Shown here piece after piece: positions 14,114-37,574 of a stretch of 56,769 bases of DNA (position 1 is its first letter; every line of letters starts with the position of its first letter). Source of the stretch: Hansschlegelia zhihuaiae (GTDB lineage: Bacteria; Pseudomonadota; Alphaproteobacteria; Rhizobiales; Methylopilaceae); the NCBI RefSeq assembly GCF_004103825.1, contig NZ_RYFI01000001.1:327315-384083 (forward strand). Direction: 5' to 3'. The notes below the pieces were generated by a model. The model saw nothing but the letters and a program-made list of their open reading frames with translations, ran no database searches and was not told the DNA's origin. Position numbers and translations under genes: made by a program.

Positions 14114-14161
14114 GACTGGAGCGGGCGAAGGGATTCGAACCCTCGACCCCAACCTTGGCAA
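14114..14161 (-). repeat. Truncated tRNA-Gly 3' half (distal attachment-site copy)
   Basis: 48 bases identical to 37527-37574. They cover CCA, acceptor 3' strand, T-arm, variable region and the anticodon stem 3' strand and loop. Beyond 14161 the sequence diverges, so no D-arm or acceptor 5' strand exists and this cannot be a working tRNA. Confidence 0.8.
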
Positions 14162-14745
14162 TCGAGGATTTGCAGTGTCTCTGCAGTTGTTCGGATTGAA
14201 CAAAATTAGGTTCAGTACAGCGCCTTATCGTCGATGGACACTATGTGTCGGGCAAGCGACGATCACCCGCACTCGACCGCCGGTGTTAGCGTAGCATGCG
14301 CCGCGACCTCCGCGATCAGCGCGTCGCTCTCCCCGAACGGTTACGGGTGTAAGGCTACCTTTGAGGGTCGCCTCCAGGAGGAGGCTGTGCGCCAGCCCGA
14401 CTTGTTCCGCTTACCTCAAAAGCCATGGAACGCGCCGAAGGCGCGGCGGATCGGAGGGACGATCGCTGCAGACCAAAGGGTTCGGCTGCGTAAAGGTTGG
14501 CTGAGCGTCTGTCCGTCAGCGCGGCCTCCGGCGACGAGCCTGAGGTTTGTCAGATTGGATCCACGGATCGCCTCGGCGAATGCTCGCGGTCCGCAATCTG
14601 ATCCTGGCCGCCGGGGTGTGTTGTGCTAGACTTCGAAGACGGTAGTTTCGTCCTCGATGCGGCGGACATATGCTCTACCAGAGTGGCTTGAGATACAGTT
14701 TGTCCCTAGCATCTGTCGAATATTGAGTTGGGCGGAAGCACGCCA
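14162..14745. other. Island-edge region without recognisable gene (584 bp)
   Basis: This is where an integrase would be expected next to the attachment site. The short open frames match nothing I recognise, and base composition is a little less GC-biased than in flanking genes. The end of the region presumably holds the tsdBA promoter. GGAAG at 14734-14738 is the ribosome-binding site of tsdB. Confidence 0.5.
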
Positions 14746-15414
14746 ATGATTGCTTCTAAAGTTTGGCTCTTTTTCGCCATGTCGGCGATTACGTCGGTGA
14801 CTGGCCGCCCAGCGGTGGCGGCCGAAGCCGGCTCGGTTATCGCCACTCAGGGAAACGGCCGCGGGGCGGTAGCCTGCAAGGCGTGTCATGGAGAGGCCGG
14901 CGCCGGAATCCCCGCTGTGGGTTTCCCGCGGCTCGCCGGCATGTCCAAGGAATATATTGTCCGCCAGCTCGACGCCTTCGCTGACGGAGGCCGAGCCCAT
15001 ACGATGATGTCGCCCGTCGCGAAGGCCCTTTCGCCAGACGAACGTGCCGCCGTGGCGGCTTATTTCGAGGCTGCCCGGGCGCCCGCGACGCCCGGCCTGG
15101 CGCCCGTCGACGAAGCGACGCTCGCGCGCGGCGCTGTTCTCGCAAGGGATGGCGCGTGGTCGAAAGGTCTGCCCGCCTGCGGCCAGTGCCACGGACCCGA
15201 CGGAGGCGGGATCGCGCCGGCGTTTCCTCCGCTCGCCGGCCAGTCCGAGAAATATCTCAAGGCGCAGCTCGACGCCTGGCGACAGGGCAAGCGAACCGGC
15301 GACCCGCTGCAATTGATGACGGTGGTGGCGAGTAAGCTGGACGACGCGGAGGTCGCCGCGGTGGCGGCCTATTACGCCCGGCTTCCGCCCGAGGCGAAGG
15401 GTGAAGAACGATGA
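14746..15414 (+). CDS. tsdB: Diheme cytochrome c4-type protein, electron acceptor of thiosulfate dehydrogenase
   Basis: 222 residues. A signal peptide (to about residue 27) is followed by two homologous cytochrome c domains with heme motifs C44-KA-C47-H48 and C145-GQ-C148-H149. The tandem arrangement and the repeated AGxPRLAG / PPLAGQSEKYL sequence are typical of cytochrome c4. It overlaps the next gene by four bases (ATGA). Because that gene is TsdA-like, this is best read as TsdB, which takes electrons from thiosulfate oxidation in the periplasm. The ATG at 14746 is preferred over the upstream TTG at 14728 because GGAAG sits eight bases before it. Confidence 0.82.
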   Translation: MIASKVWLFFAMSAITSVTGRPAVAAEAGSVIATQGNGRGAVACKACHGEAGAGIPAVGFPRLAGMSKEYIVRQLDAFADGGRAHTMMSPVAKALSPDERAAVAAYFEAARAPATPGLAPVDEATLARGAVLARDGAWSKGLPACGQCHGPDGGGIAPAFPPLAGQSEKYLKAQLDAWRQGKRTGDPLQLMTVVASKLDDAEVAAVAAYYARLPPEAKGEER

Positions 15415-16337
15415 CCGCGGCCAAACGGGCGCATTCCATCCTGTTCGCGGCCGTCGCTTCCCTCAGCGTCGCCGGCCTCGCCGTGGCCGGCGCGGCTTGG
15501 GCGGACCCGTCGGGCGAACAGTCCGCCTTCACGCCGCCGAGCGGAGCCGAAATTCCCAAGGGCGGCTTCGGCGAGATGGTGGCGCTCGGGCGAGACATCT
15601 TCACCGACACGTCCAAACATGCCGGCGCCTTCGTCGGCAACGACCTAAATTGCTCCAACTGTCATCTCGACAAGGGCCGTCTGGCCGGTGCGGCCCCGCT
15701 ATGGGCGGCCTACGTGGCCTATCCGGCCTTTCGGAAAAAGAACCAGCGCGTCAACACGTTCGAAGAGCGGCTGCAGGGTTGCTTCCGATACAGCATGAAC
15801 GGGAAGGCGCCGCCGCTCGGCGATACGACTTTGATCGCGCTTCAGGCCTACGCCTATTGGCTCGCCAAAGGGGCGCCGACCGGCGTCGACATGAACGGTA
15901 GGGGATATCCGGCTCCCAAGAAGCCGGAGCGCCTCGACCTCGCCCGGGGAGGCGAAATCTACGCGCAGAAATGCGCCCTCTGCCACGGCGCGGATGGCGC
16001 GGGCCTAAAGGCCGCCGACGGTTCTGTCGCTTTTCCTCCGCTTTGGGGGCCGCGCTCCTACAATTGGGGCGCCGGAATGAGCGTGATCACCAACGCGGCC
16101 GGCTTCATCAAGGCGAACATGCCGCTCGGCCTCGGCGGGACGCTGAGCGACGAGGATGCATGGAACGTGGCCGCCTTCGTCGACAGCCACGAGCGGCCGC
16201 AAGATCCAAGGTTCGAAGGTTCGGTGGCCGAGACGCGCAAGGCGCATCACGACAATCCTCTTGACCTTTATGGAACGGAAATCGGCGGCGTGACGCTCGG
16301 CGAGAACTCGCCGCCCTCCGGTCCGCAGCCGAAGTAG
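15411..16337 (+). CDS. tsdA: Thiosulfate dehydrogenase (tetrathionate-forming), diheme cytochrome c
   Basis: 308 residues with a signal peptide ending near ADP (residue 33). Heme 1 binds at C81-SN-C84-H85. The Cys that serves as unusual distal ligand in TsdA is present at C124 in the family motif ERLQGCFRYSMNG. Heme 2 binds at C188-AL-C191-H192, with a Lys/Met pair in KANMPLG for its distal side. TsdA joins two thiosulfates to tetrathionate in the periplasm and passes two electrons on, here probably to TsdB. Start and stop overlap with tsdB indicates translational coupling. No sox genes are present in the window. Confidence 0.87.
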   Translation: MTAAKRAHSILFAAVASLSVAGLAVAGAAWADPSGEQSAFTPPSGAEIPKGGFGEMVALGRDIFTDTSKHAGAFVGNDLNCSNCHLDKGRLAGAAPLWAAYVAYPAFRKKNQRVNTFEERLQGCFRYSMNGKAPPLGDTTLIALQAYAYWLAKGAPTGVDMNGRGYPAPKKPERLDLARGGEIYAQKCALCHGADGAGLKAADGSVAFPPLWGPRSYNWGAGMSVITNAAGFIKANMPLGLGGTLSDEDAWNVAAFVDSHERPQDPRFEGSVAETRKAHHDNPLDLYGTEIGGVTLGENSPPSGPQPK

Positions 16338-16354
16338 CGCGTCGTCTGCGCGCT

Positions 16355-17140
16355 CTACGCCAAGGCTGAGATGCTGCGCCAGATCATGTAGCCGGCGACG
16401 GCGAAGATCATGACGGCGAAAGCGACGTTCAGGGCGCCTTTTGCGGTCGCGAGCCGGCTGGCGACCTTCGCGCCGATCCACCCCCCGAGGACCCCTCCGG
16501 CGACGAAAATGAGCGCCAGAGGCCAATCGACGAAGCCGGAAGCAGCGTAGTTCAAAGAGGTCGCCAGGCCGAAGGCGGCGACCGCGACCAGCGAGGAGCC
16601 GATCGCCATCAGCGTCGGCATCCCGGTCGAGGCGATGAGGCCGGGCACAATGAGAAAGCCGCCCCCGATGCCGAAGAAGCCGGAGAACATTCCGGTGGCC
16701 GCGCCGTAACCCAGCACCTTGGGCGCCTTCTCGATCGTGCATTGCGAATTGGCGTCGCCGAGATGGCCGCGCCCCCTCAGCATCAGTACGCCGACCGCCA
16801 CCATCAGCAACGCAAAGAACAGCAGGAGCTTCTGACCATCGATCGACTTGCCGATCGTCGACCCGAGCAGCGCGCCAAAGATGCCGGCGACGCCGAACAT
16901 CGCTGCGCAACGCCATTTGACGTTTCCTCTGCGAGCATGGGCGACCAGGCTCGATCCGGCGTTCGCCGCCACTGCGAAGGCGCTGGTGCCGATGGCCATG
17001 TGCGGGCTGGGCACGCCCACGAGATAAACCATGAGCGGCACGGCGAGGATCGAGCCCCCGCCGCCGAACAGGCCGAGGGTCAGCCCTACTAAGCCGCCTG
17101 AGAGGCCGCCGAGCGCATATTGGAGTGGTTCAAGCGTCAT
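16355..17140 (-). CDS. TauE/SafE (TSUP) family membrane protein, probable sulfite exporter of the persulfide operon
   Basis: 261 residues, about eight membrane segments, with the glycine-rich repeat starts LGLFGGGGSILAVPL and FFGIGGGFLIVPG that define TSUP proteins. It is the last gene of a seven-gene minus-strand operon for persulfide handling. The dioxygenase in that operon makes sulfite, so sulfite efflux is the likely job. Ten bases separate it from the SQR gene. It resembles the operon-borne exporters of bigR loci more than the msm-linked exporter at 2994-3758. Confidence 0.83.
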   Translation of the reverse strand: MTLEPLQYALGGLSGGLVGLTLGLFGGGGSILAVPLMVYLVGVPSPHMAIGTSAFAVAANAGSSLVAHARRGNVKWRCAAMFGVAGIFGALLGSTIGKSIDGQKLLLFFALLMVAVGVLMLRGRGHLGDANSQCTIEKAPKVLGYGAATGMFSGFFGIGGGFLIVPGLIASTGMPTLMAIGSSLVAVAAFGLATSLNYAASGFVDWPLALIFVAGGVLGGWIGAKVASRLATAKGALNVAFAVMIFAVAGYMIWRSISALA

Positions 17141-17150: not shown

Positions 17151-18836
17151 CTATTCAGCCGCCTCGAGCACCTCGCGCCCTGGCTTCGCCATGGGCTCGC
17201 GGCCCTTCAGCATGGCTTTCCAGTAGATCGCCGGGAGCACGCGCTCCTTCAAAAGCCAAGCCGCTTTCGAAGGCTTGAGGTCGTCGATGAACCACTTGGG
17301 AAAGCTCGGGATACGCCTTCCGCCATAGCCGAATTCGGCGAGGATCACTTTGCCGCGCTCGACTGTGAGCGGGCACGATCCGTAGCCGTCGTAGACGGCG
17401 GCGCGCGGCTCGTCGAGCACGCCAAGGTCACGAAGCAGGTTCTCGGCGACGACCGGCGCCATCTTGCGGGCCGCGGCCGCGGTCTTGGCGTTCGTCGTGC
17501 CGCTTGCGTCTCCCAGACCGTAGATGTCCGGGAACTTGACGTGCCGCAGCGTCGCCGGGTCGAGGTCGAGCCATCCGGCCTCGTTGGCGAGCGGCGAGGC
17601 CTTCACCACGTCGGGCGGACTCTGCAGCGGCGTCACATGCATCATGTCGAACGCGCGCTCGACGATCGTGCTCTCGCCGTCCTTGCCCGAGACCTTGAAC
17701 CAGGCGCGTTTCGCCGGGCCGTCGACGCGGATGAGATTGTGGCCGAAGGACAGGTCGATGCCGTACCTCTTCACATATTCCATCAGCGGCGGCACATAGT
17801 CCGCGACACCGAAGAGGACCGGCCCGGCGTTCAGGAACTCGACCCTGACATCGTTCAGGACGCCCTGCCTCAGCCAGTGATCGCAGGAGAGGTACATCGC
17901 TTTCTGTGGCGCGCCCGCGCATTTGATCGGCATCGGCGGCTGGGTGAACAGCGCCGTCCCGCGCCGGAAGTTCTTCACGAGCTCCCAGGTGTAGGGCGCG
18001 AGGTCGTAGCGGTAGTTCGACGTGACGCCGTTCTTGCCGAGCGTCTCCTCGAGACCTTCGACGCCCGCCCAGTTCAGCTTGAGGCCAGGCGCGACGACCA
18101 GCTTCTCGTACGTGACGGGACGGCAGCCCTCGAGGATGACGGCCTTGTTCTGCGGGTCGAATCCCGCGACCGCGGCCTTGATCCACCGCACGCCGTGCGG
18201 GATGAGCGAACTCATCTGCTTGCGGGTGTCGCCCGCCTGGAAGACGCCGCCGCCGACGAGCGTCCAGCCGGGCTGGTAGTAGTGGACGTCGGCCGGCTCG
18301 ACGATCGCGATGTCGAGGCCGGACTTGCGGGCGAGCATGCTGGCCGCGACCGCGATTCCGCCGGCGCCGCCGCCCACGATTATGACGTCATGATGCTCGG
18401 CGGAGCGGTCCACCGGCACGCCGCCCGTCTCGATGCGCTTCGCGACGCCGGACAGGTCGTAGCCTGCGGCGCTCGCTCGCCGGACGATCTCATCCAGCGG
18501 GCGCTTTCCGGCCTGCGACAGCGCCCACAGCGTCGCGGTGCGCGTTCCGGACCGGCAGAAGCCGAGCGCCGGCTTGGGCAACGTCGCCAGCAGAGCGCCG
18601 AAGGCGGCGGCGTCCTCGTCGCTGACCTTTCCCGTCTCGACCGGCAGATAACGCGCCTCAAGTCCCGCCTGCCGCGCCGCGGCCTCGATCTCCGTGAACG
18701 TCGGCTGGTCGGCGCCTTCGCCATCCGGACGGTTCACGATGACCGAACGGAACCCGGCCGCTTTCGCCTCCGCCATTTCGGGCACAGTGAGTTGTGCGCT
18801 CACGGACAGTTCGTCCGTCAGTCTCTTCGCCTGCAT
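17151..18836 (-). CDS. DUF442 (phosphatase-like/rhodanese-like) - sulfide:quinone oxidoreductase fusion
   Basis: 561 residues. Residues 1 to about 125 form a DUF442 domain with the CRSGTR loop (C94). Residues 147 to the end form a type II sulfide:quinone oxidoreductase, with the FAD motif GGGAGG (155-160), the CAGAPQK motif and a late GSCPLTVE motif that carry the redox cysteines. The SQR half oxidises sulfide at the membrane, passes electrons to quinone and yields persulfide. The DUF442 half, known from Blh proteins of bigR operons, may act as sulfur acceptor or transferase (inference). It lies between the persulfide dioxygenase and the exporter. GGGAGA precedes the ATG. Confidence 0.85.
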   Translation of the reverse strand: MQAKRLTDELSVSAQLTVPEMAEAKAAGFRSVIVNRPDGEGADQPTFTEIEAAARQAGLEARYLPVETGKVSDEDAAAFGALLATLPKPALGFCRSGTRTATLWALSQAGKRPLDEIVRRASAAGYDLSGVAKRIETGGVPVDRSAEHHDVIIVGGGAGGIAVAASMLARKSGLDIAIVEPADVHYYQPGWTLVGGGVFQAGDTRKQMSSLIPHGVRWIKAAVAGFDPQNKAVILEGCRPVTYEKLVVAPGLKLNWAGVEGLEETLGKNGVTSNYRYDLAPYTWELVKNFRRGTALFTQPPMPIKCAGAPQKAMYLSCDHWLRQGVLNDVRVEFLNAGPVLFGVADYVPPLMEYVKRYGIDLSFGHNLIRVDGPAKRAWFKVSGKDGESTIVERAFDMMHVTPLQSPPDVVKASPLANEAGWLDLDPATLRHVKFPDIYGLGDASGTTNAKTAAAARKMAPVVAENLLRDLGVLDEPRAAVYDGYGSCPLTVERGKVILAEFGYGGRRIPSFPKWFIDDLKPSKAAWLLKERVLPAIYWKAMLKGREPMAKPGREVLEAAE

Positions 18837-18882: not shown

Positions 18883-19749
18883 TCAGAGCCCGTCGATCGG
18901 GACCTTGAGGTATCGCTTGCCGTTGCTCTCCGGCTCGGGCAGTTCGCCGGCCTTCATGTTCACCTGGAGCGACGGGATGATGAGGTTCGGCATGGCGAGG
19001 GTGGCGTCGCGCGCGGTGCGCATCGCGACGAACTCGTCCTCGGTCACGCCGTCGCGCACGTGGATGTTGTGGGCGCGCTCGTCGGCGACCGTGGTCTCGC
19101 TGCGGATCTCACGCCCGTTCGGCCCATAGTCGTGGCACATGAAGAGCCGCGTCTCGGGCGGCAGCGCGAGGACCTTTTTGATCGAGCGGAACAGCACTCG
19201 GGCGTCCCCGCCCGGAAAGTCCGCGCGCGCGGTGCCGCCGTCCGGCATGAACAGCGTGTCGCCGACGAACGCGGCGTCGCCGATCACATAGGTGAGGCAG
19301 GCGGGCGTGTGGCCGGGCGTGTGCATCACGCGCCCCTCGAGTCCGCCGATGCCGAACGTGTCGCCATCCTCGAACAGGCGATCGAACTGCGAGCCGTCCC
19401 GCTGGAATTCGCTGCCTTCGTTGAAGACCTTGCCGAAAGTCTCCTGAACGACGCGGATGTTCGCCCCGATGGCGAGCTTTCCGCCGACCGCCTGCTGGAT
19501 GTAGGGGGCGGCCGACAGATGATCGGCATGGACATGCGTCTCGAGCAGCCACTCGACCTTCAGACCGTGGCTGCGGACGTGCTCGATCACGGCGTCCGCG
19601 GATGCGTGGCTGACGCGCCCCGACGGGTAGTCGAAGTCGAGCACGCTGTCGACGATAGCGCAGGCGTTGCTCGAAGGATCCTTCACCACGTACGAGAACG
19701 TGTTGGTTGCCGGATCGAAGAACGTCGTGACGTCCGGGTGGCCGGTCAT
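18883..19749 (-). CDS. Persulfide dioxygenase (ETHE1/Blh-type metallo-beta-lactamase fold)
   Basis: 288 residues with the MBL motif H72-x-H74-x-D76-H77, then H147 in PGHTPA and D164 in VGDTLF, the iron ligands expected for ETHE1-like sulfur dioxygenases. It oxidises glutathione persulfide to sulfite. The length fits the bacterial type II/Blh branch without a rhodanese extension. GGAGGAG eight bases before the ATG is a strong ribosome-binding site. It lies between the YeeE/YedE pair and the DUF442-SQR gene, so sulfide, persulfide and sulfite steps are encoded in a row. Confidence 0.88.
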   Translation of the reverse strand: MTGHPDVTTFFDPATNTFSYVVKDPSSNACAIVDSVLDFDYPSGRVSHASADAVIEHVRSHGLKVEWLLETHVHADHLSAAPYIQQAVGGKLAIGANIRVVQETFGKVFNEGSEFQRDGSQFDRLFEDGDTFGIGGLEGRVMHTPGHTPACLTYVIGDAAFVGDTLFMPDGGTARADFPGGDARVLFRSIKKVLALPPETRLFMCHDYGPNGREIRSETTVADERAHNIHVRDGVTEDEFVAMRTARDATLAMPNLIIPSLQVNMKAGELPEPESNGKRYLKVPIDGL

Positions 19750-19760: not shown

Positions 19761-20210
19761 TCAGCCGCGGATTGGCTGATCACGATGGAAAAAGCGGATG
19801 GTGGCGCGGTCGTGGATCGCCATTCCGGCCAGCATCGCAGCCAGGAACAGCAACGTCGCCGGAACCCCGAGCGTGATCGAAGCGACGGCGGGCCCGGGGC
19901 AGAGCCCGGCCATTCCCCAGCCGACGCCGAAGATCGCGGCCCCGGCCACCAGCTTCCCGTCGATCGTACGGCTCTTTGGCAAGTGGAAGCTCTGGTCGAA
20001 GGCCGGGCGCGGCAACCGACGCGACAGCCAGACGCCGATCGAAGCGGCCGCGACCGCGCCGCCCAGCACGAAGGCGAGGCTCGGGTCCCAGGCGCCGAAA
20101 ACGTCGAGGAAGCCGCGCACGCGCGCCGGGTCCAGCATCCCTGAGAGCGCGAGCCCGAAGCCGAATATCAGGCCGCTCAGCCCAGCCACGACAATCTGCG
20201 CGCCGTTCAT
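19761..20210 (-). CDS. YeeE/YedE family half-size membrane transporter, second gene of pair
   Basis: 149 residues, four to five membrane segments. The C-terminal half carries GMAGLCPGPA, one of the two Cys motifs that mark YeeE/YedE (DUF395/DUF6691) sulfur-compound transporters. The start at 20210 overlaps the stop of the upstream partner by four bases. The longer open frame further upstream is the shadow of the partner gene. Such half-size pairs (PmpA/PmpB-like) accompany ArsR regulators and persulfide enzymes. Uptake or export of a reduced sulfur species is probable; the substrate is unknown. Confidence 0.8.
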   Translation of the reverse strand: MNGAQIVVAGLSGLIFGFGLALSGMLDPARVRGFLDVFGAWDPSLAFVLGGAVAAASIGVWLSRRLPRPAFDQSFHLPKSRTIDGKLVAGAAIFGVGWGMAGLCPGPAVASITLGVPATLLFLAAMLAGMAIHDRATIRFFHRDQPIRG

Positions 20211-20632
20211 GACGCCCCCGCAAAACGCATGATTGCGACGGTCCCGATCGCTGTGGCGAGGAAGACCGCAACGGCCACGATCGAGCGAGGCGACAGGCGG
20301 GCGAGGCCGACCACGCCATGTCCGCTGGTGCAGCCGGATCCCAGACGCGTGCCGTAGCCGACGAGCAGGCCGGCGATCACCAGCATTGGCGTCGAGGCCA
20401 CGACGCTGATCTCGGGCAGCCGGCCGTAGACGAGCGCATAGAGGCTCGGCCCGAGCACGAGGCCGATCACGAAAGCGACGTTCGCCGCCGGACCCGCCTC
20501 GGTGCGGCGCCAGAGCCCGCTGAGGATGCCGCTCACGCCGGCGACGCGGCCGTTCAGGACCATCATCAGGCTCGCGGCGAGACCGATGGCTATCCCGCCG
20601 AAAAGCGAGGGCAGATAAGGTGCGAGAGTCAT
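20207..20632 (-). CDS. YeeE/YedE family half-size membrane transporter, first gene of pair
   Basis: 141 residues, about four membrane segments, with the diagnostic GCTSGHGVVGLARLS motif. Together with the next gene it would rebuild the two-Cys-motif pore of full-length YeeE/TsuA thiosulfate transporters. Both its start (with arsR) and its stop (with the partner) overlap neighbours by four bases, which implies coupled translation. The transported sulfur species is inferred, not seen. Confidence 0.8.
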   Translation of the reverse strand: MTLAPYLPSLFGGIAIGLAASLMMVLNGRVAGVSGILSGLWRRTEAGPAANVAFVIGLVLGPSLYALVYGRLPEISVVASTPMLVIAGLLVGYGTRLGSGCTSGHGVVGLARLSPRSIVAVAVFLATAIGTVAIMRFAGAS

Positions 20633-21039
20633 GCACGACCTCCAGCGTCCGGGAACGGCAGGATGCGGGCGAAACGCGACGCGCCATGACCCGGCTCAGG
20701 CGCTGCTGTCCCTGCGGGGCGCCTGTTGCGTGGTTGCGGGTCGGCGGCCAACCCATAGACGTGCGAGAGCACGCCGACGATCCGCGCGGCCTTCTCGTCG
20801 GCGAGCCGGTAGAAGACCTGCTTGGCGTCGCGCCGGGTCGCCACCAGCCCTGCCTCGCGCAGACCGGCGAGCTGCTGGGAGAGCGTCGGCTGGCGGATGC
20901 CGAGTTCGGACTCAAGGTCCCCGACCGACGCCTCGCCGCGGCTCAGCCTGGCCGCGATCATCAGCCGGTTGGGGTTGGAGAGCCCCTTGAGGAACTCCGC
21001 CGCCGCTTCGGTCTCGGCGCGTGTGGCGTTTACGGGCAT
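20629..21039 (-). CDS. ArsR-family repressor of the BigR/SqrR type, without cysteines
   Basis: 136 residues. The winged HTH core (GEASVGDLESELGIRQPTLS, REAGLVATRRDAKQVFYRL) aligns closely with BigR/SqrR persulfide sensors. Those repressors sense persulfide through two cysteines, one in the LMxxC helix and one after the last helix (FC). Here the positions read LMIAARL and HVYGLA, and the whole protein has no Cys. A proline/arginine-rich tail of about 35 residues follows the core. It is the second gene of the persulfide operon and probably binds the operator upstream of the peroxiredoxin gene. How it would sense sulfide is open. Confidence 0.88.
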   Translation of the reverse strand: MPVNATRAETEAAAEFLKGLSNPNRLMIAARLSRGEASVGDLESELGIRQPTLSQQLAGLREAGLVATRRDAKQVFYRLADEKAARIVGVLSHVYGLAADPQPRNRRPAGTAAPEPGHGASRFARILPFPDAGGRA

Positions 21040-21046
21040 CGCAATC

Positions 21047-21709
21047 TCACTGACGCTTCAGGCGGTAGTACCAGTCGGGTGCGTCCGCGGTCGGCGCATG
21101 GCTCGCGACGTCGTCGGCCGAGATCGGCGATGCATCGATCACCGGGTCGCCCGTGCGCCATCCCTCCGGGGTCGAGACGTCGCCCGCATGCGCGGTCTGG
21201 AGCGCCTCGACGAGCCTGAGGATTTCAGCGACCGAGCGGCCGACGCTCATCGGGTACCAGGTGATTGCGCGCACGATCCCCTCGGGATCGATCACGAAGG
21301 TCCCGCGCACGGTCGAGCTGTCCGCCGCGCCCGGCTGCAGCATGCCGTAGGCGCGGGCGATCGCCATGGAGGGATCTTCGGCAATCGGGAAAGGCACCCG
21401 GACGCCGAACCTGTCCTCGATCGATCGCGCCCAGGCGATATGCGAATGCAGGCTATCGACCGACATGCCGAGCAGGTCGCACCCGATCGCCGCGAACGCC
21501 TCGAAGTCACGCGAGAAGGCGATGAACTCGCTGGTGCAGACCGGCGTGAAGTCAGCCGGATGCGAAAAGAACACGAGCCAGCGCCCTTGATAGTCCGAGA
21601 GCTCGCGCTCACCCATCGTCGTGCGCGCGACGAACAGCGGCGCCCGATCGCCTATGACGAGGGGCGCCAGGGCGTTCGGCTCATTCTGGATGGCAAGGGC
21701 TTCGGACAT
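21047..21709 (-). CDS. 1-Cys (Prx6-type) peroxiredoxin, first gene of the persulfide operon
   Basis: 220 residues, AhpC/TSA fold with the peroxidatic motif PADFTPVC (C58). The only other Cys (C77) is not at a usual resolving position, so it belongs with 1-Cys peroxiredoxins, in line with the long C-terminal domain (WRTGDPVI). It reduces peroxides, and some family members act on persulfides. Seven bases separate it from arsR. It leads the operon and faces a 119-bp AT-rich promoter region. Confidence 0.87.
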   Translation of the reverse strand: MSEALAIQNEPNALAPLVIGDRAPLFVARTTMGERELSDYQGRWLVFFSHPADFTPVCTSEFIAFSRDFEAFAAIGCDLLGMSVDSLHSHIAWARSIEDRFGVRVPFPIAEDPSMAIARAYGMLQPGAADSSTVRGTFVIDPEGIVRAITWYPMSVGRSVAEILRLVEALQTAHAGDVSTPEGWRTGDPVIDASPISADDVASHAPTADAPDWYYRLKRQ

Positions 21710-21749: not shown

Positions 21750-21828
21750 AAACATATTCATTTTTTTGCAACTAAAAATGCGGGCGCTACGGACGTCGTG
21801 CGCTATCGGGCTGAGGGAGACAGGCAGC

Positions 21829-29843: not shown

Positions 29844-29886
29844 GACTGTCCGATCTCCTTCGCGACCGCTCTCCATGACGGTTGAG

Positions 29887-29905: not shown

Positions 29906-29987
29906 TCACAAGCCGCGAGCTTCAGGATATCGTCAGCTTCGCCGCGCAAGTGGGATCAAGCCGGTGTCGCGGCAGGGAGGCTGGCTC

Positions 29988-30332
29988 ATGCAGAGGGCGC
30001 TGACAATTCTGGCCCTTCTTGTGGGCCTTTCCGCCGGAGCGGCGCTCGCCGACGATGATTGCTTCGTTCCCATGGCGGACTGGCGGCCGCGGGAGGCGGT
30101 GGCGCGCCTCGCGGCGGAGAACGGCTGGACAGTGCGTCGCATCAAGATCGACGACGGCTGCTACGAGATCGAGGGCGACGACGCCGACGGGCGCCGGATC
30201 GAGGCGACGGTTCATCCCGCGACGCTTCGGGTGATAGAGTTCCACTATAAGGACGGCGACGGCCCGCGCCGGCCGGATCGGGAGGAGAAAAGCGAGGATC
30301 GAGGCCGTCCGCGAGATCAGGACGAGAGGTGA
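29988..30332 (+). CDS. Secreted PepSY-domain protein
   Basis: 114 residues. A signal peptide (cut near ALADD, about residue 21) is followed by one PepSY domain with the pattern VARLAAENGWTVRRIKIDDGCYEIEG and a highly charged C-terminal tail. AGGGAGG seven bases before the ATG at 29988 supports this start over the ATG at 29964. PepSY proteins often sit beside QseBC-like two-component systems and may modulate them or bind metal. Its two Cys residues (near the mature start and in DDGCYEIE) could form a disulfide. Confidence 0.82.
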   Translation: MQRALTILALLVGLSAGAALADDDCFVPMADWRPREAVARLAAENGWTVRRIKIDDGCYEIEGDDADGRRIEATVHPATLRVIEFHYKDGDGPRRPDREEKSEDRGRPRDQDER

Positions 30333-30401
30333 CGCGCCGACAATATCCAGGTGTCGTCAAGCTCGCTGAGCCCCGTTCCGGCCGATCCTCTCTTCGCCCT
30401 C

Positions 30402-30432
30402 AAAGGCCCCGCCCTCCCGGCGGGGCCTTTTT
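30402..30432. terminator. Rho-independent terminator after the PepSY gene
   Basis: AAAGGCCCCGCC / GGCGGGGCCTTT with a five-base loop, then TT. It lies 70 bp after the PepSY stop, so the downstream genes need their own promoter. Confidence 0.85.
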
Positions 30433-30434
30433 CG

Positions 30435-30478
30435 TTCCTGACGGCAAGCTGAAGCGGAAAGCGATCCGCCGTCAGGAA
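30435..30478. promoter_or_regulatory. Inverted repeat with CTGACG direct repeat upstream of the flavin module
   Basis: The perfect 11-base arms TTCCTGACGGC (30435-30445) and GCCGTCAGGAA (30468-30478) flank 22 bases. Inside, CTGACG (30438-30443) and CTGAAG (30449-30454) are 11 bp apart, as in the repeat at 29887-29905. It is therefore a candidate site for the same response regulator, 54 bp upstream of the next start codon. Confidence 0.52.
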
Positions 30479-30531
30479 ACCCTCAGGCAGCGTCTCCAGG
30501 CTCAGTCCATCAGACGAAGGAGACCCCTGAC

Positions 30532-30894
30532 ATGACAAAGACCCTCGCCCTTCTTTTCGCCTCGACCGCGCTCGCGGCGGGCGTCGGGCTGCCCGCCTGG
30601 AGCGCCACGCGGACCCCGGGCGACGGCGCCTCGCAGTCCGCCGTCGAACTCTTTGACGTCGGGCGGGAACGGGCTCCGCTCGTCCTGGTCAGCGACGACG
30701 ACGACCACGAAGACGACGACGATGAGGACCGCGGCGACCGCCGCTCGTCCCAAACTGACGACGATGACGAGGAAGAGGACGACGCCGACGACGATCAGGG
30801 CGGCGCCCGCCATCCGGCGCCGATCGCGCCCACGGCCCCGCCGCAGAACGGGCTCTTCGTCAAGGGCGCGCCGCCGCAGGTCCAGGTGAACTGA
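30532..30894 (+). CDS. Secreted Asp/Glu-rich protein of unknown function
   Basis: 120 residues. A signal peptide (cut near AWSA, residue 25) is followed by a central stretch of about 35 residues that is nearly all Asp and Glu, then a proline-rich end. Such runs bind divalent cations. GGAG stands nine bases before the ATG. It sits between the terminator at 30402-30432 and the DUF2271 gene, in the same direction, so it may be the first gene of the flavin module. A metal-buffering role is a guess from composition. Confidence 0.65.
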   Translation: MTKTLALLFASTALAAGVGLPAWSATRTPGDGASQSAVELFDVGRERAPLVLVSDDDDHEDDDDEDRGDRRSSQTDDDDEEEDDADDDQGGARHPAPIAPTAPPQNGLFVKGAPPQVQVN

Positions 30895-30936
30895 ACCTGG
30901 CCGTCGCTCTCCCGATTCGAAGAAGGCTCAACTCCC

Positions 30937-31407
30937 ATGAAACCCGTTCTCGCAGCCCTGGCGCTGACCGCGTCGCTGGCCTTGCCTGGCGTCGCCACGG
31001 CTCGCCCGGTCACCCTGACCGCCGCGCTCAACAATTACGGCGGCGACGGCGCCTACCTGGCGATCTATGTCACCGACCCGAAGGGCGCCTATGCCGGCAC
31101 GCTCTGGGTCTCCGGCGGCAAGTCGAAATACTATCGGCATCTGACCGACTGGCATCGCGCGACCGGTGGCGCCCCCGCCGAGATCAACGGCATCACGGGC
31201 GCGAGCGTCGGCGCGGGTCGCACGCTCAAGATCACGCTCGACCTCGCCGACGCGCTCATCGACGCGGGCTACACGCTGCACGTCGACGCAGCCGTCGAAA
31301 ACATGCGCGACAGCCCGAACGAGATCGCGGCGCCCCTGACGATCGACGGCGCCGGCAAGCCCGTGCGGGGGCGCCGCTACGTCGCCAGCCTCACCTACGA
31401 CATGTGA
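30937..31407 (+). CDS. DUF2271 protein, candidate flavinylated periplasmic protein
   Basis: 156 residues. A signal peptide (cut near ATARP, residue 22) is followed by a DUF2271 domain (LTAALNNYGGDGAYLAIYVTD ... beginning, with YVASLTYDM at the end). Residues 86-90 read ITGAS within EINGITGASVGAG; this resembles the (S/T)GA(T/S) motif at which ApbE attaches FMN in NqrC, RnfG and NosR, with S90 as the candidate linkage. It overlaps the diflavin gene if that gene uses GTG at 31404, and an ApbE gene follows. It probably carries FMN in an extracytoplasmic electron path. Confidence 0.75.
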   Translation: MKPVLAALALTASLALPGVATARPVTLTAALNNYGGDGAYLAIYVTDPKGAYAGTLWVSGGKSKYYRHLTDWHRATGGAPAEINGITGASVGAGRTLKITLDLADALIDAGYTLHVDAAVENMRDSPNEIAAPLTIDGAGKPVRGRRYVASLTYDM

Positions 31408-31418
31408 GGCCCAAAGCC

Positions 31419-33626
31419 ATGATCCGCGCTCTCCACCGTTGGCCGGGCCTGCTGGCTCTGGCTCTGGTTGTGATTCTGGCGCTCAGCGGCGCTGCGCTGT
31501 CGATCTTTCCGCCCGTGGAGCGCCTCGCCTCTCCTCAGACGGAAGCCGATCTGAGCGTTGCCGAACTCGCCGCACGCATCCAGGCCGCATATCCGGGCCT
31601 CGAGCGGATCCGGCGCGCGCCGTCGGGCCGGATCATGGCCGCCTGGCTCGATGGCGGCGGGCCGGGCGCTGCGGTCGTCGACCCCGCCACGGGTCGACGC
31701 GTCGCTTCAGCTGATCCCGACCAGGCCCAACGCTGGCTGACCAACCTGCACCGGTCGCTCTTCTTGGGGGACGCCGGCCGGATTGCGGCGGCGGCCGGCG
31801 CGGCCGCGATGCTGGCATTGTCGCTTTCCGGCGCGGTGCTGGTGGCGCGGCGCTCCGGCGGATGGCGGCGCTGGTTCGCGCGGTTGCGCGGCCCGTTGTC
31901 CGGCCGCCTGCATGTCGAGATCGCCCGCGCCGCGGTCGCCGGCCTGGCCTTGTCGTCGGCCACCGCGCTGTGGATGACAGCCTCCACCTTCGATCTTCTG
32001 CCCGACGGGGCCGCGTCGCCTGCGATCACGGCCGTGCCGAGCGGCAAGACGGGCTTTCCGATCGCAGCGATCGACCTGCTCAGACGCACCCCCGTTACCG
32101 AGTTGCGCGAACTCAGCTTTCCCTATCCCGGCGACGTCTCGGACGTCTTCACGCTGAAGACGGACCGGGGCGCCGGATCCATCGACCAGGGGACCGGAGC
32201 GGTGCTGGGCTGGGCCGGCCTGACGGGATGGGAGCGCGTCTCCGAGACGATCTCCATGCTTCATACCGGTCGGGGCGCCGCGGCGTTCGGCTTGGCGCTC
32301 GGCCTGATGGCCATGGGCGTGCCGGCCATGGGTGGAACGGGCGTCCTCGTCTGGCTGGCGCGCAAACGGAGCAGCCCGCGGATTCGCGGCAACCAGCCCG
32401 CTGGCAGGGCGGAGACGATCCTCCTCGTCGGGAGCGAGGGCGGCAGCACCTGGGGCTTCGCGGCGACGCTGCACAGGGCGCTGACCGAGGCGGGTCAGAC
32501 CGTCCACGCGGCTCCGATGGCGGCCTTCGATCCGGACCGCTATGCCCGGGCCAGGCGCATCATCATTCTCGCCGCGACCTATGGGAACGGCGATGCGCCC
32601 GCCTCGGCCAAGGGTTTTCTCGACCGGCTGGCGCAGCTTGAAGCGGTCCCCGCCGCGCCGCTCGCGGTGATCGGGTTCGGCGACCGCAGCTTTCCCGCCT
32701 TCTGCGCCTTCGCGAAAGCTGTGTCTGCGGCGGCCGCGGCGAAAGGTTGGCGCGAACTCGTTCCCTTCGACGCTGTGGACCGCCAATCGCCGCAGGATTT
32801 CGCCCGTTGGGGTCGCGCTCTCGGGCAGGCCCTGGGAATCGACCTGGCCCTCGCGCACCAGCCGATTCCAGCGGCCTTTCAGCGGCTCACGCTGATCGGG
32901 CGGCGCGATTATGGAGCCGATGTGCAGGCGCCGACCGCGATCCTGCGCTTCTCCCTGCCGAAGGTTTCGCTGTGGCGGCGACTGACTGGAAAGGGCTTCG
33001 GGCGCTTCCGCGCGGGCGACCTTCTCGGCGTCCTGCCTGACGGGTCCGGCCTTCCGCGGTTTTATTCGCTCGCGTCCGGGCGTCGCGACGGCTTCGTGGA
33101 GATCGTCGTGAAGAAACATCCGGGCGGGCTCTGTTCCGGCCAGCTCATGGCGCTCGAGCCGGGTGACCCGGTGTCGGCTTTCCTCCGCCGCAATCCCCGC
33201 TTCCATCCCGCGCCGGATCGCGCGCCGCTGATCCTGATCGGCGCGGGGACGGGGATCGGCCCGCTCGCGGGCTTCGTCCGGGACAACGCGCGCCGGCGTC
33301 CCATCCACCTGTTCTTCGGGATGCGCCATCCCGACAGCGACTTCCTTTACGGCGAGGAGCTCGCGGGCTGGCAGGCCGAGGGCCGCGTCGCGCAGCTCGT
33401 CACGGCGGTCTCGCGGGGCGCGAAGCCCCATTACGTCCAGGACGCGCTGCGCTCCGAAGGCGCCCAGGTCGCGCGGCTGATCCGGAGCGGCGCGCGCGTG
33501 ATGGTCTGCGGCGGACGCGACATGGCCGTAGGCGTCGCCGAGGCGCTTGCGGACATTCTCGCGCCTTGGGGAGTGAGCGCCGCCGCGCTGAAGGCGGAGG
33601 GACGGTATGTCGAAGACGTCTACTGA
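31419..33626 (+). CDS. PepSY-associated membrane protein fused to flavodoxin/FAD/NADPH reductase
   Basis: 735 residues from the ATG at 31419; a GTG at 31404 overlapping the previous stop is the alternative. The N-terminal third is a PepSY-type membrane protein: a first helix, a PepSY-like region at 35-110, and further helices near 125-150, 175-195 and 285-310. A flavodoxin-like domain (TYGNGDAPAS) follows at about 325-465. A cytochrome P450 reductase-like FAD/NAD(P) module carries RFYSLAS, GAGTGIGPLAG and a C-terminal VMVCGGRDMA motif. It should move electrons from NADPH across the membrane to an outside acceptor, probably the flavinylated DUF2271 protein. Confidence 0.85.
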   Translation: MIRALHRWPGLLALALVVILALSGAALSIFPPVERLASPQTEADLSVAELAARIQAAYPGLERIRRAPSGRIMAAWLDGGGPGAAVVDPATGRRVASADPDQAQRWLTNLHRSLFLGDAGRIAAAAGAAAMLALSLSGAVLVARRSGGWRRWFARLRGPLSGRLHVEIARAAVAGLALSSATALWMTASTFDLLPDGAASPAITAVPSGKTGFPIAAIDLLRRTPVTELRELSFPYPGDVSDVFTLKTDRGAGSIDQGTGAVLGWAGLTGWERVSETISMLHTGRGAAAFGLALGLMAMGVPAMGGTGVLVWLARKRSSPRIRGNQPAGRAETILLVGSEGGSTWGFAATLHRALTEAGQTVHAAPMAAFDPDRYARARRIIILAATYGNGDAPASAKGFLDRLAQLEAVPAAPLAVIGFGDRSFPAFCAFAKAVSAAAAAKGWRELVPFDAVDRQSPQDFARWGRALGQALGIDLALAHQPIPAAFQRLTLIGRRDYGADVQAPTAILRFSLPKVSLWRRLTGKGFGRFRAGDLLGVLPDGSGLPRFYSLASGRRDGFVEIVVKKHPGGLCSGQLMALEPGDPVSAFLRRNPRFHPAPDRAPLILIGAGTGIGPLAGFVRDNARRRPIHLFFGMRHPDSDFLYGEELAGWQAEGRVAQLVTAVSRGAKPHYVQDALRSEGAQVARLIRSGARVMVCGGRDMAVGVAEALADILAPWGVSAAALKAEGRYVEDVY

Positions 33627-34611
33627 CCTGGTGCGGCGCGCGCTGAACGGTCCCACGATGGGAACCCTCTGGTCCGCTCTGTTCCATGCGGCGCCGGAAC
33701 TCGACCCCGGGACCGTGCAGGCGGCGCTGCAGGCTGCGGTCGACGAGGTGGACGCGCAGATGTCCACCTGGAAACCTGACAGCGAGCTCATGCGTCTGAA
33801 CGCGGCCCCGGTCGGGGAATGGCTCGCGGCGCCGGCTCGCCTGCTGGAGGTCCTGCGCATCGGGCTGGAGATCGGGCGCGCCTCGGGCGCAGCCTTCGAC
33901 ATCGGCATGGGGGATGCGGTCGCCGCCTGGGGGTTCGGCTGCGAGGCTGCTTCGCCCGAGCGGATCCGCGCCGCGATGGCCGCCCCGCGAGGTCCCGCGC
34001 AGGAGGCGATCGAACTCGACGGGACGACGGGCCGCGTGCGGAAACGCCGGCCGATCGCCCTCGACCTCAACGGGATCGCCAAGGGCTATGGCGTCGACCG
34101 ACTCGCGGAAACGCTGGGCGGCTTCGGCGTCGGCTCCGCGCTTGTTGGAATCGACGGAGAAATGCGGGCGCTTGGCCTGAGGTCCGATCGCGAACCGTGG
34201 GCCATTGCGGTGGAGGCGCCCGACCCGATGCGCCGCGCGCCGAACTCCATCCTCACGCTTCAGGACGCCGCCGTCGCGACCTCCGGCGACTACCGTCACT
34301 GGATCGAAATGCAGGGACGCCGCCTGTCGCACACCATGGATCCGAAGCGCGGCGCGCCGCTCGTGACCTCGCCCGCCTCGGTCACCGTCGTCGCCCGCAC
34401 CTGCGCCGAGGCGGACGCATGGGCGACCGCTCTCATGGTGCTTGGCCTGGAGGCCGGCGCGGAGATGGCGCGTCACCGCGGTCTCGACGCCCTCTTTCTC
34501 ATGCGCGATGATGACGGAGCCATCCAGGGGGCAGGCGTCGGACATCTGTTTTCCGAGGGGCCAGCGGCGATCGCCTCGGGCCGAGGAATTGAGGCGCATG
34601 GAAGACGCTAG
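33607..34611 (+). CDS. apbE: FAD:protein FMN transferase ApbE, without signal peptide
   Basis: 334 residues. ApbE motifs are present: GTLWS at the start, AFDIGMG, LDLNGIAKGYGVD, VGIDGEMRALG, then ATSGDYRHW and HTMDPKRGAP. The enzyme moves FMN from FAD to Thr/Ser of target proteins. It overlaps the diflavin gene by 20 bp. Oddity: it has neither a signal peptide nor a lipobox, and an in-frame TGA at 33589 rules out a longer start. It therefore appears cytoplasmic, whereas most ApbE proteins act outside the membrane. The adjacent DUF2271 protein is the likely substrate. Confidence 0.88.
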   Translation: MSKTSTDLVRRALNGPTMGTLWSALFHAAPELDPGTVQAALQAAVDEVDAQMSTWKPDSELMRLNAAPVGEWLAAPARLLEVLRIGLEIGRASGAAFDIGMGDAVAAWGFGCEAASPERIRAAMAAPRGPAQEAIELDGTTGRVRKRRPIALDLNGIAKGYGVDRLAETLGGFGVGSALVGIDGEMRALGLRSDREPWAIAVEAPDPMRRAPNSILTLQDAAVATSGDYRHWIEMQGRRLSHTMDPKRGAPLVTSPASVTVVARTCAEADAWATALMVLGLEAGAEMARHRGLDALFLMRDDDGAIQGAGVGHLFSEGPAAIASGRGIEAHGRR

Positions 34612-36499
34612 GGTCGACCGGTGGAAGACGGCCCTCCTGGCGCTCGCGGTCGCGGGCCTTGCGGCCGGACTGGCCTTCGTTGTCTCCGGCAATGCCGAGG
34701 CGGCTGAGATCGCCTGGTTCGTCGGGGTCGCGCCGGTTCTGGCCGCGCTGTTGATCGAGATCCTGCGCAGCCTGCGCCGGGGAGACGTCGGGCTCGACAT
34801 CGTCGCGGCGTTGTCCATGTCCGCCGCTCTCGCGTTCGGCGAGGCGTTGGCTGCGGCGGTCGTCGCGGTCATGTATTCCGGCGGCGCCTTCCTTGAGAGC
34901 TTCGCCGAAGGCCGCGCGCGGCGCGAGATGAAGGATCTCCTGTCCCGCGCGCCGCGAACCGCCACCCGGCATCGGGATGGCGGCCTGGAGGAGATCCCCC
35001 TCGACGCGATCGAGGCCGGCGACCGGCTGCTGATCCGGCAGGGGGACGTGGCGCCGGTGGACGGCGTGATCGCCTCCGACGTAGCCTTTCTCGACACATC
35101 AGCCTTGACCGGGGAGTCGCTGCCAGCGCGTCTGCCGCGCGGAGCCGAGGCCATGAGCGGCTCCGCCAATGCGGGCGAGGCGTTCGACCTCGTGGCCACG
35201 CGCCGCGCGGCCGAGAGCACCTATGCGGGGATCGTGCGGCTGGTCGAGGAGGCGCAACGGTCCAAGGCGCCGATGGCGCGGCTGGCCGACCGCTGGTCGG
35301 TAGGCTTCCTCGTCGTCACCGTCGCGCTCGCGTTCGCCGCCTGGTGGTTCACGGGCGATCCGATCCGGGCCGTCGCCGTGCTGGTGGTGGCGACGCCATG
35401 TCCCTTGATCCTGGCGGTGCCGGTCGCGCTGGTGGCGGGCCTGTCGCGAGCGGCGCATTTCGGCGTGCTGGTGAAGGGGGCCGCGCCGCTCGAGACGATG
35501 GCGCGGACCCACACGCTGATCCTCGACAAAACCGGCACGCTGACCGACGGGCGCCCGCGGATCGTCGCGTTCGACAGCCATGGCGGCATGGCCGAACAGG
35601 ATGTGCTCCGCCTCGCCGCCGGACTGGAGCAGGCGTCTCAGCATCCGGTCGCGCGGGCCATCGTGGCGGCGGCCCGGACGCGCGGCATGGCGCTTCCCGT
35701 GCCCTCGGACGTCGCCGAGACGCCGGGCGAGGGCGTCGTGGGACTGGTCGACGGCCGCAAGGTCGTCGTGGGCGGTCACGGTTTCGTGGCGAAGCGCGTG
35801 CGTCGAATAGTCGACGATCATCCGGCCCTTGAGGCCGGCTCGGTCCTCGTCGCCGTCGCAGTGGACGGCGAAATGGCGGGGCATCTCCTGATGGCCGACC
35901 CTCTTCGCGAAGACGCGGGCGCCATGCTCGGCAGGCTCCGTAAGGAAGGCGCTGGACGTATTCTGCTGGCGACGGGCGACCGCGTCCAGGTCGCGGAACG
36001 GGTGACGAAAGGGCTTGGTTTTGACGGCGTTCGGGCCGGGCTGACCCCTGACCAGAAGGTTCTTCTCGTCCTGACGGAGCGTAAGAATGGGCCCGTCATG
36101 ATGGTGGGCGACGGCGTGAACGACGCGCCTGCGCTCGCAGCGGCGGACGTGGGCGTTGCGATGGGAGCCCGTGGCGCCGCCGCTTCGGCCGAGGCAGCCG
36201 ACGTCGTGCTTCTGGTCGACAGGATCGACCGTCTGGGGATGGGAATCGAGATCGCCCGGCGCTCGCGGCGCATCGCCGTCGAAAGCGTCGTGGCGGGCGT
36301 CGGCATGTCCGTTCTAGGCATGGTCGCCGCCGCCTTCGGCTACCTGACCCCGGTGCAGGGCGCGCTCCTTCAGGAAGCGATCGACGTGGCGGTCATCCTG
36401 AACGCTCTGCGCGCGTTGCGCATCGAGCCGCACGAGCCCGGGTCGCACCGCGCCCCGGAGGCGCTGGCCGCCGCTCGTATTGAAGGAACCGCGTCATAA
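34598..36499 (+). CDS. P1B-type heavy-metal-transporting ATPase without N-terminal metal-binding domain
   Basis: 633 residues. Motifs in order: ALTGES (actuator), ATPCPL in the transport helix, DKTGTLTDG (phosphorylation Asp), SQHPVARA (nucleotide-binding His-Pro) and GDGVNDAPAL. Six to eight membrane helices. The protein starts directly with the first helix, so the usual HMA or His-rich N-terminal domain is missing. The transport motif is TPC instead of CPC, which leaves the metal uncertain. The start at 34598 overlaps apbE by 14 bp, so it belongs to the same transcript. Confidence 0.87.
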   Translation: MEDARVDRWKTALLALAVAGLAAGLAFVVSGNAEAAEIAWFVGVAPVLAALLIEILRSLRRGDVGLDIVAALSMSAALAFGEALAAAVVAVMYSGGAFLESFAEGRARREMKDLLSRAPRTATRHRDGGLEEIPLDAIEAGDRLLIRQGDVAPVDGVIASDVAFLDTSALTGESLPARLPRGAEAMSGSANAGEAFDLVATRRAAESTYAGIVRLVEEAQRSKAPMARLADRWSVGFLVVTVALAFAAWWFTGDPIRAVAVLVVATPCPLILAVPVALVAGLSRAAHFGVLVKGAAPLETMARTHTLILDKTGTLTDGRPRIVAFDSHGGMAEQDVLRLAAGLEQASQHPVARAIVAAARTRGMALPVPSDVAETPGEGVVGLVDGRKVVVGGHGFVAKRVRRIVDDHPALEAGSVLVAVAVDGEMAGHLLMADPLREDAGAMLGRLRKEGAGRILLATGDRVQVAERVTKGLGFDGVRAGLTPDQKVLLVLTERKNGPVMMVGDGVNDAPALAAADVGVAMGARGAAASAEAADVVLLVDRIDRLGMGIEIARRSRRIAVESVVAGVGMSVLGMVAAAFGYLTPVQGALLQEAIDVAVILNALRALRIEPHEPGSHRAPEALAAARIEGTAS

Positions 36500-36525
36500 G
36501 CCGCCTCGCTCACTCCGAAGTCCAC

Positions 36526-37197
36526 ATGGTTCAGCGCATCGGCTGGTTGCGCGCCGCGGTTCTGGGGGCGAACGACGGGCTCGTCTCGACCGCGAGTCTC
36601 GTCGTCGGCGTCGCCGCCGCCGGATCCGGACGCACGGAGGTCCTGATCGCCGGCCTCGCCGGACTGGTCGCCGGAGCGATGTCGATGGCCGCGGGCGAAT
36701 ACGTCTCGGTCAGTTCGCAGGCTGACGCCGAACAGGCCGACATCGCGCGCGAGACCCGGGAGTTGAGGGAGACGCCTGAGGAGGAGCTCGACGAGCTGAC
36801 GCGCATCTATGTCGAGCGCGGCCTCGACGAGCCTCTGGCCCGGCAGGTCGCCGTTCAGCTCACGGAGAAAGACGCCCTCGGCGCCCACTCACGCGACGAG
36901 CTTGGCATCTCCGAAACCGTGACCGCTCATCCGCTTCAGGCCGCGCTCGTCTCGGCTGTCACCTTCGCCTCCGGGGCCGTCGTCCCATTGGTCGTGGCCC
37001 TGGTGGCGCCTGCGCCCGGGATCACGCTCTTGGTCGCGGTCACGACGTTGTTCGGGCTCGCGGCGCTCGGCGGCCTCGGCGCTTCGGCCGGCGGCGCAGG
37101 GATCGTCAAGGGAGCGGTTCGCGTCACCTTCTGGGGCGCGCTCGCCATGGCCGCGACCGCCGCGGTCGGGGTGATCTTCGGCGTGACCGCAGGTTGA
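36526..37197 (+). CDS. VIT1/CCC1 family Fe2+/Mn2+ transporter
   Basis: 223 residues with five membrane helices. Characteristic motifs are GANDGLVSTASLVVGV at the N-terminus and AGLVAGAMSMAAGEYVSVSSQ in the second helix pair. A central hydrophilic metal-binding domain (rich in Glu/Arg, about 66-125) follows, then three C-terminal helices. Homologues move Fe(II) or Mn(II) out of the cytoplasm. It follows the P-type ATPase by 26 bp and is the last gene of the island before the tRNA. Confidence 0.87.
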   Translation: MVQRIGWLRAAVLGANDGLVSTASLVVGVAAAGSGRTEVLIAGLAGLVAGAMSMAAGEYVSVSSQADAEQADIARETRELRETPEEELDELTRIYVERGLDEPLARQVAVQLTEKDALGAHSRDELGISETVTAHPLQAALVSAVTFASGAVVPLVVALVAPAPGITLLVAVTTLFGLAALGGLGASAGGAGIVKGAVRVTFWGALAMAATAAVGVIFGVTAG

Positions 37198-37526
37198 GGA
37201 TGGCGTTGAGCCAATCCTCCGCCCGCGGCAGCCAATTTTCCTTGCCCGACCGGACAGGCCGGCGGACCGCACAGAAAGTGGACCGCGAGCTTCATACCTG
37301 AATCGTCCGCTTTTGGGCGAGGCGTCAACTTCCACTCTTGACCCCACGAACGGTCTTCCGCCGCACCCTCGCACACTGAAGCGACGGCGCGACTTCATAT
37401 CGGCTGTGTCGCCGGCCCATGTAACCCGCATGTAACCGCGGCCACTCGGCCTCCCGCGCCGTCTCGGGACCATACCCCGAAAACGACGAAAGCCGCGGAA
37501 TGTCCGCGGCTTTTCGGCAGTCTTGA
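37198..37526. other. Intergenic region at the right island edge
   Basis: 329 bp between the VIT gene and the attachment-site repeat. It contains the tRNA-side hairpin at 37491-37511. I see no integrase, coding frame or RNA gene. Confidence 0.5.
37491..37511. terminator. Hairpin terminator downstream of tRNA-Gly
   Basis: AGCCGCGGA-ATG-TCCGCGGCT, 18 bp past the tRNA 3' end on the minus strand. The same hairpin with a changed loop stands beside the tRNA fragment at 14078-14098. Confidence 0.68.
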
Positions 37527-37574
37527 GACTGGAGCGGGCGAAGGGATTCGAACCCTCGACCCCAACCTTGGCAA
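37527..37574 (-). repeat. Proximal copy of the 48-bp attachment-site repeat
   Basis: It overlaps the 3' half of the intact tRNA-Gly and is identical to 14114-14161, in the same orientation. The identity ends exactly at the 5' edge of the anticodon loop (minus strand). Confidence 0.8.

Follow-up and report, generated by a model that had tools for sequence, protein, structure and literature searches.

Islands inserted in tRNA genes (tDNAs) are catalogued in Islander, and in the table of that paper 2083 of the 3919 islands fall in class A, in which the crossover lies in the anticodon loop (PMC4383910). As described there, an Islander tDNA island lies between an intact tDNA and a displaced 3' fragment of it in the same orientation. 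Here we describe a locus of this layout in Hansschlegelia zhihuaiae, within a stretch of 56,769 nucleotides (NCBI RefSeq assembly GCF_004103825.1, contig NZ_RYFI01000001.1, positions 327,315 to 384,083 of the forward strand), the whole of which is called the window and numbered from its first letter. With high confidence, we read positions 14162-37574 (23.4 kb) as a tyrosine-integrase island that entered the anticodon loop of a tRNA-Gly(GCC) gene, lost its integrase and carries a cargo made of two blocks. The locus shares with Islander islands the intact tDNA, the displaced fragment, the island between them and the anticodon-loop crossover, and differs from them in that no integrase gene was recognised. 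It is thus a genomic island at a tRNA site, ordinary and of a known and well-documented kind, without its integrase.

Each cargo block also has a described counterpart. For ApbE flavinylation, PepSY-like clusters are reported to include DUF2271 proteins, an NAD-binding domain and, in some cases, VIT1, and to have a proposed role in iron reduction and uptake (PMC8238504). The block nearest to the intact tRNA gene has the same PepSY_TM with an NAD-binding domain, a DUF2271 protein with the [S/T]GA[S/T] motif, ApbE and VIT1; it differs by adding a two-component pair and a P1B ATPase and by sitting in an island. The other block resembles the bigR operon for sulfide oxidation (PMC5823870) in having a BigR-like regulator of the ArsR type, the sulfur transferase and dioxygenase domains of Blh and a sulfur transporter. 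It departs from that operon by carrying the transferase as a fusion with a sulfide:quinone reductase-like (SQR-like) domain, by encoding the dioxygenase separately and by having a regulator devoid of cysteine.

Results

A tRNA-Gly(GCC) gene and its displaced 3' half

An exact 48-bp direct repeat lies at 14114-14161 and 37527-37574, as the core of a longer repeat of 94 bp (14068-14161 and 37481-37574; 94% identity) that includes the hairpin terminators. ARAGORN called a single tRNA in the window, a minus-strand tRNA-Gly(GCC) at 37604-37530 whose 3' end points toward the island; it called no tRNA at the left copy. That copy corresponds to the tRNA from position 31, where the anticodon loop (TTGCCAA) opens, to the CCA end, after which comes a terminator. 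These results bear out the first-pass annotation of the stretch, made from the letters alone, which had described a perfect repeat, a right copy forming the 3' half of an intact tRNA-Gly with its 3' end inward, and a left copy reduced to a fragment that ends at the anticodon loop. The intact tDNA and the fragment are on one replicon and in the same orientation, with the fragment downstream; as in tDNA islands, the fragment starts at a known place of crossover, the anticodon loop, and ends at the tRNA 3' end.

The draft genome of the strain (4.62 Mb, 97.5% complete) was searched with the tRNA as query, and the gene at 37604-37530 was the only tRNA-Gly(GCC) gene found. The remaining matches (E 0.001) do not exceed 83% over 58 bases or 93% over 29 and are far weaker than the left copy, which is therefore not a chance match. 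Four of these five matches are other tRNAs (Val-GAC, Gly-CCC, Gly-TCC and Arg-ACG), and the 29-base match is on no tRNA.

Empty and occupied sites in the genus

The 12 congeners fetched (G001 to G012) stand at a distance at which Obg is 84-90% identical to that of the window. In nine of them (G001-G007, G009 and G011) the tRNA lies, as in the window, near L21, L27, an acetyltransferase-like protein, Obg and proB, while the Obg gene of G008, G010 and G012 sits on a different contig or at a distance of 167 kb. Across the genus, the L21-L27-Obg-proB side, on the 5' side of the tRNA, is ancestral, and the 3' side is hypervariable.

Occupied and empty versions of the site were both found, in two congeners rather than in the species of the window itself. 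G006 has the empty site, with the first called gene starting 151 bases from the tRNA start. In G011 the tRNA is followed by about 20 kb that contain a tyrosine integrase of 429 amino acids (aa) and end with a 48-bp tRNA fragment, behind which the G006 backbone resumes with 88-99% protein identity where genes are called in both genomes. When the G011 island is taken out and the flanks are joined at tRNA base 30/31, the resulting 2232 bases align end to end with G006 (90.6% over 2281 columns). On sequence comparison, we regard this pair as decisive for insertion in this tRNA, and it supports the integrase-mediated event proposed for the window. The comparison with relatives suggested earlier gave the tRNA without the cargo in G006 and no fragment without an insert among the sites that were read closely, a set outside which fall several further fragment-like matches, for example in G008 (C21), G021 (C10), G037 and G052. 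At the site of G009 there are an extra 9 kb and a terminator of the element type, but no fragment.

The same pair informs the origin of the terminators. The terminator behind the G011 fragment is the one found behind the tRNA in G006, and the intact G011 tRNA has a different one; the G011 element hence brought its own terminator, as had been supposed for the element in the window. By analogy, the window terminator after the intact tRNA would have come with the element and the one after the fragment would be native to the chromosome. The two are alike and of one type, and on folding both beat every one of 200 shuffles. In G007, the end of the tRNA copy in one of the two fragments (G007A; L071 near 15327) forms a long near-perfect palindrome with the terminator that follows.

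Recurrence of the fragment and possible traces of a lost integrase

Displaced tRNA-Gly fragments lie downstream of the tRNA in at least five of the 13 genus genomes: that of the strain itself (G000), G001, G005, G007 (with two) and G011. This is a lower bound, with 20 kb downstream examined in the fragment-free genomes (G002, G003, G004, G006, G008, G009, G010 and G012). G000, G011 and G007A agree in the base at which the fragment starts; in G007B and G001 the start is 1-3 bases earlier, by match, and in G005 it is ten bases later.

The intervals of G011, G005 and G001 contain tyrosine integrases, that of G001 being a different one with no match to that of G011 at E 1e-4. An integrase of the G011 type is present in 10 of 397 genomes of the order, G011 included (E 1e-40), and in six of the ten (G011, G005, G300, G168, G339 and G361) the integrase has tRNA-Gly(GCC), the 3' fragment of this tRNA or both no more than 15 kb away in the DNA fetched; the G300 interval spans 17.4 kb with the integrase within. 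The elements of the G011/G005 type share with the window island the tRNA and a size of about 20 kb, and G011 also the fragment start and an element-borne terminator. They differ by a tyrosine integrase of 408-429 aa and by other cargo, and in G005 wear has left 35 bp of the fragment. In G300, the repeat that bounds the interval (L143 near 14935, L142 near 15507) continues, with few differences, through the 95 bases printed past the tRNA and into an apparent gene start.

The earlier statement that no integrase is recognisable agrees with Pfam, tblastn and PHROGs searches. PF00589 has 12 matches in the strain's own genome, none of them on the contig of the window; tblastn with the G001, G005 and G011 integrases over 96.8 kb around the site gave nothing better than E 0.26; no integrase of the G011 type was found in the own genome at E 1e-40; and PHROGs revealed no phage or integrase remnant among nine open reading frames (ORFs), mostly at or near the two ends. 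No serine recombinase or transposase appeared among the main cargo ORFs given to Pfam, no search targeted at these families having been made. The interval holds no PF00589 integrase of the sort required by Islander, whose integrase filter would therefore reject it. Elsewhere in the own genome (C11:79906-80636; L006), a tyrosine integrase match is followed within 200 bases by the 29-base tRNA-Gly-like match, possibly a second tRNA-site island.

The element-side arm of the left attachment (att) copy, 20 bases long, is identical at 15 positions to that of G007A, 14 to G007B, 12 to G168, 11 to G300 and 9 to G011; G005 stayed outside the arm tests, its fragment being too worn to place the arm. Against seven other arms, the window arm has a mean of 9.7 of 20 identities versus 5.3 for random island 20-mers (reached in 1 of 20,000 draws), and the eight arms together have a mean of 7.75 versus 5.28 (0 of 20,000), counts that are not strict probabilities since the arms adjoin one common core and come from related genomes. 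With G361 and G001 left out, the mean of the six arms is 10.67 versus 5.37. The likeness of the arms suggests that the lost integrase was of the G011 kind, with an imperfect fit.

Cargo and flanks

The coordinates of the att sites, the cargo and the ancestral flank are collected in Table 1. The cargo had been called coherent, which holds in part only, as it consists of two blocks with different histories. Two regulators had been counted in it, where we find one ArsR-type regulator and two two-component pairs. The functions given for the cargo of this island are predictions from sequence.

Table 1. Features of the island and its right flank, in window coordinates
Feature	Coordinates	Strand	Basis
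Terminator after the fragment, presumed native to the chromosome	14068..14116	-	repeat, G006/G011 analogy, folding
Left att copy, displaced tRNA-Gly 3' half from the anticodon loop on	14114..14161	-	repeat comparison
Element-side att arm, alike to G007 (two), G168 and G300, more weakly G011	14162..14181	-	arm comparison
Block 1: TsdB-like dihaem cytochrome c, two CxxCH	14728..15414	+	
TsdA-like thiosulfate dehydrogenase, SoxA/TsdA domain, two CxxCH	15411..16337	+	
TauE/SafE sulfite exporter	16355..17140	-	
Blh-type sulfur transferase domain fused to SQR-like domain	17151..18836	-	
Persulfide dioxygenase, Blh C-terminal type, own gene	18883..19749	-	
Half-size YeeE-type sulfur transporter	20207..20632	-	
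ArsR repressor, BigR-like (under the cut-off of that model), zero cysteines	20629..21039	-	
AhpC/TSA peroxiredoxin	21047..21709	-	
Phospholipid/isoprenylcysteine methyltransferase-like protein	21766..22302	+	
YkuD L,D-transpeptidase	22309..22968	-	
DsbA-like thioredoxin	22987..23625	-	
Response regulator and histidine kinase, two genes	23746..25772	+	
DsbD	25794..27611	-	
Block 2: second two-component pair, QseBC-like; block start	27853..29909	-	
PepSY_2 protein, small unknown acidic protein, DUF2271 protein with TGAS motif (three genes)	29964..31407	+	
PepSY_TM-flavodoxin-NAD-binding transmembrane reductase	31404..33626	+	
ApbE flavin transferase	33607..34611	+	
Heavy-metal P1B ATPase; true start probably later than ORF start	34442..36499	+	
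VIT1-family iron/manganese transporter	36526..37197	+	
Terminator after the intact tRNA, presumed element-borne	37481..37529	-	repeat, G006/G011 analogy, folding
Right att copy, 48 bp; with the following terminator presumed element-borne	37527..37574	-	G006/G011 comparison
Intact tRNA-Gly(GCC), presumably regenerated by the element	37530..37604	-	ARAGORN, genome search
Ancestral right flank: L21, L27, acetyltransferase-like 376-aa protein, Obg, proB	40441..46810	+	

Block 1 (14.7-27.6 kb) combines persulfide, thiosulfate and Dsb functions. Its Blh-SQR fusion is found in 46 of the 397 genomes of the order at E 1e-80, including four of the 13 in the genus, with near-full-length cover in 42 of the 47 matches in these genomes; a narrow literature search turned up no named fusion of this kind accompanied by a separate dioxygenase. 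Much of the block is present at other loci in G009, G007 and G003, where the fusion is 83, 71 and 71% identical and where the tsd genes occur in G003 alone. No tRNA lies in the 40 kb fetched around each of these copies, and those of G003 and G007 have common neighbours on one side. Beside the tRNA-Gly(GCC) of relatives, the DNA fetched gave only weak matches to the cargo, at most 44% identical. The BigR sensor consists of two cysteines; in the aligned stretch, the block 1 regulators of G003 and G009 have one cysteine each and that of G007 has none. A second BigR-like gene, whose aligned part has one or two cysteines, lies 16-18 kb off in G003 and G007.

Block 2 (27.9-37.2 kb) comprises PepSY/ApbE flavinylation and metal transport. 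As in PepSY-like flavinylation systems, PepSY_TM (PF03929) is clustered with ApbE and DUF2271, the TGAS motif of the latter being at residue 87. A search for the reductase at E 1e-100 gave hits in 58 of the 397 genomes of the order and no hit in the 12 congeners or in the five other genomes of the family searched. The whole block is colinear in G222 and G358, which belong to other families, with 47-83% identity.

A 599-aa ORF on the minus strand lies in between the genes of the right flank. On the left, the neighbouring gene encodes a dCache-GGDEF diguanylate cyclase without an EAL hit, which amends the earlier description of a DGC/EAL protein. A 1099-aa RTX repeat protein with 14 HemolysinCabind stretches is encoded beside the island at 7728-11027. 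Positions 1-7058 belong to a conserved block, which extends some 9.4 kb beyond the left edge of the window and is at another locus in G001, G008 and G010, and proA and nadD (NCBIfam names), near proB in congeners, lie here 17-20 kb left of the window start (L058, about -19.6 kb). Since proA-nadD are parted from proB and a block conserved elsewhere (about -9.4 to 7.1 kb) is in between, this region of the genome appears to have been rearranged, probably by an inversion with one end beside proB. At that presumed end lies a short repeat of the dispersed type (46900-46955, about 55 bases), for which dozens of matches in the genus were listed.

Discussion

Several observations weigh against an integrase-driven island. 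No integrase or remnant of one was recognised in it, its base composition is like that of its flanks in the window, and no genome was found in which the window's own two flanks are joined without the island. Block 1 is 55-89% identical to that of G009 over its genes, when L21, L27, Obg and proB are 78-89% identical; with a divergence about that of the core, the block is without sign of recent foreign origin. The arms of G001 and G361 are unlike that of the window (4 and 3 of 20 identities), even though the G361 integrase is a distant relative (53%) of the G011 one. In four of the ten genomes with an integrase of the G011 type, the DNA fetched contains neither tRNA-Gly(GCC) nor a fragment; these are G171, G186 and G247, with integrases at 47-58%, and G111, on an 11-kb contig. 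The RTX and GGDEF genes (7.7-13.6 kb) are not syntenic in the congener DNA read, so that the left end has no syntenic neighbour against which to be checked.

Some of these observations would suit other histories. The att pair might be the scar of an older element whose content was lost, the present cargo having entered later by homologous recombination or another transfer between the two att copies. This is possible, though we doubt it: the interval has no recognised integrase or phage gene and its two blocks have separate distributions, as such a history would have it, but both blocks lie inside the att pair, at short distances of about 570 and 280 bp from its copies, and nothing recognisable is left of an earlier element. 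We judge it distinctly unlikely that the fragment marks the boundary between two islands in tandem, with the RTX and GGDEF genes in the second. G007 does have two fragments 14 kb apart behind one tRNA, both window terminators are of one type, and the lack of synteny around the RTX and GGDEF genes, together with the conservation of 1-7058 elsewhere in three congeners, would fit; yet no second fragment appears in the 34 kb searched leftward, and the rearrangement of the region also explains the missing synteny. That the left copy is merely a second tRNA-Gly gene in decay, duplicated without any insertion, is extremely improbable: such a duplication would account for the presence of another partial copy and its similar terminator, whereas the left copy shares its starting base with the G011 and G007A fragments, is preceded by a shared arm and belongs to an arrangement that recurs in congeners with integrases inside.

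For an island inserted by a tyrosine integrase, we infer the following order of events in this strain. The element would have entered by recombination at the anticodon loop of the tRNA-Gly(GCC) gene, with an element attachment site (attP) that held a tRNA 3' half and its own terminator; the intact tRNA would thereby have been rebuilt on the right, and the native 3' half and terminator moved to the left end. Its cargo would have been assembled from block 1, common to some congeners, and block 2, with another family as the probable donor. The integrase, most likely of the family of G011, G005, G300 and G168, would later have been lost, leaving the island fixed, or mobile only through an integrase from elsewhere. 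As no integrase is recognisable, the island is a relic or a passenger, and it is probably immobile.

A broader reading, which we consider unlikely, is that tRNA-Gly(GCC) serves the genus as a common docking site for varied elements, with or without integrases of their own, that use near-identical cores, where islands without integrases are moved in trans by the integrases of other elements as swappable metabolic cassettes. If so, the sole tRNA-Gly(GCC) gene would receive a new 3' half and a new terminator with each integration.

The site was read from the letters alone and then borne out on relatives, and islands such as this one are rejected by island finders that require an integrase. For the biology of the genus, the locus presents a tRNA gene as a recurrent docking site, at which the terminator would be replaced together with the tRNA tail, and where a metabolic island stays behind without its integrase, and its two blocks show the assembly of predicted sulfur and extracytosolic redox functions at one site.

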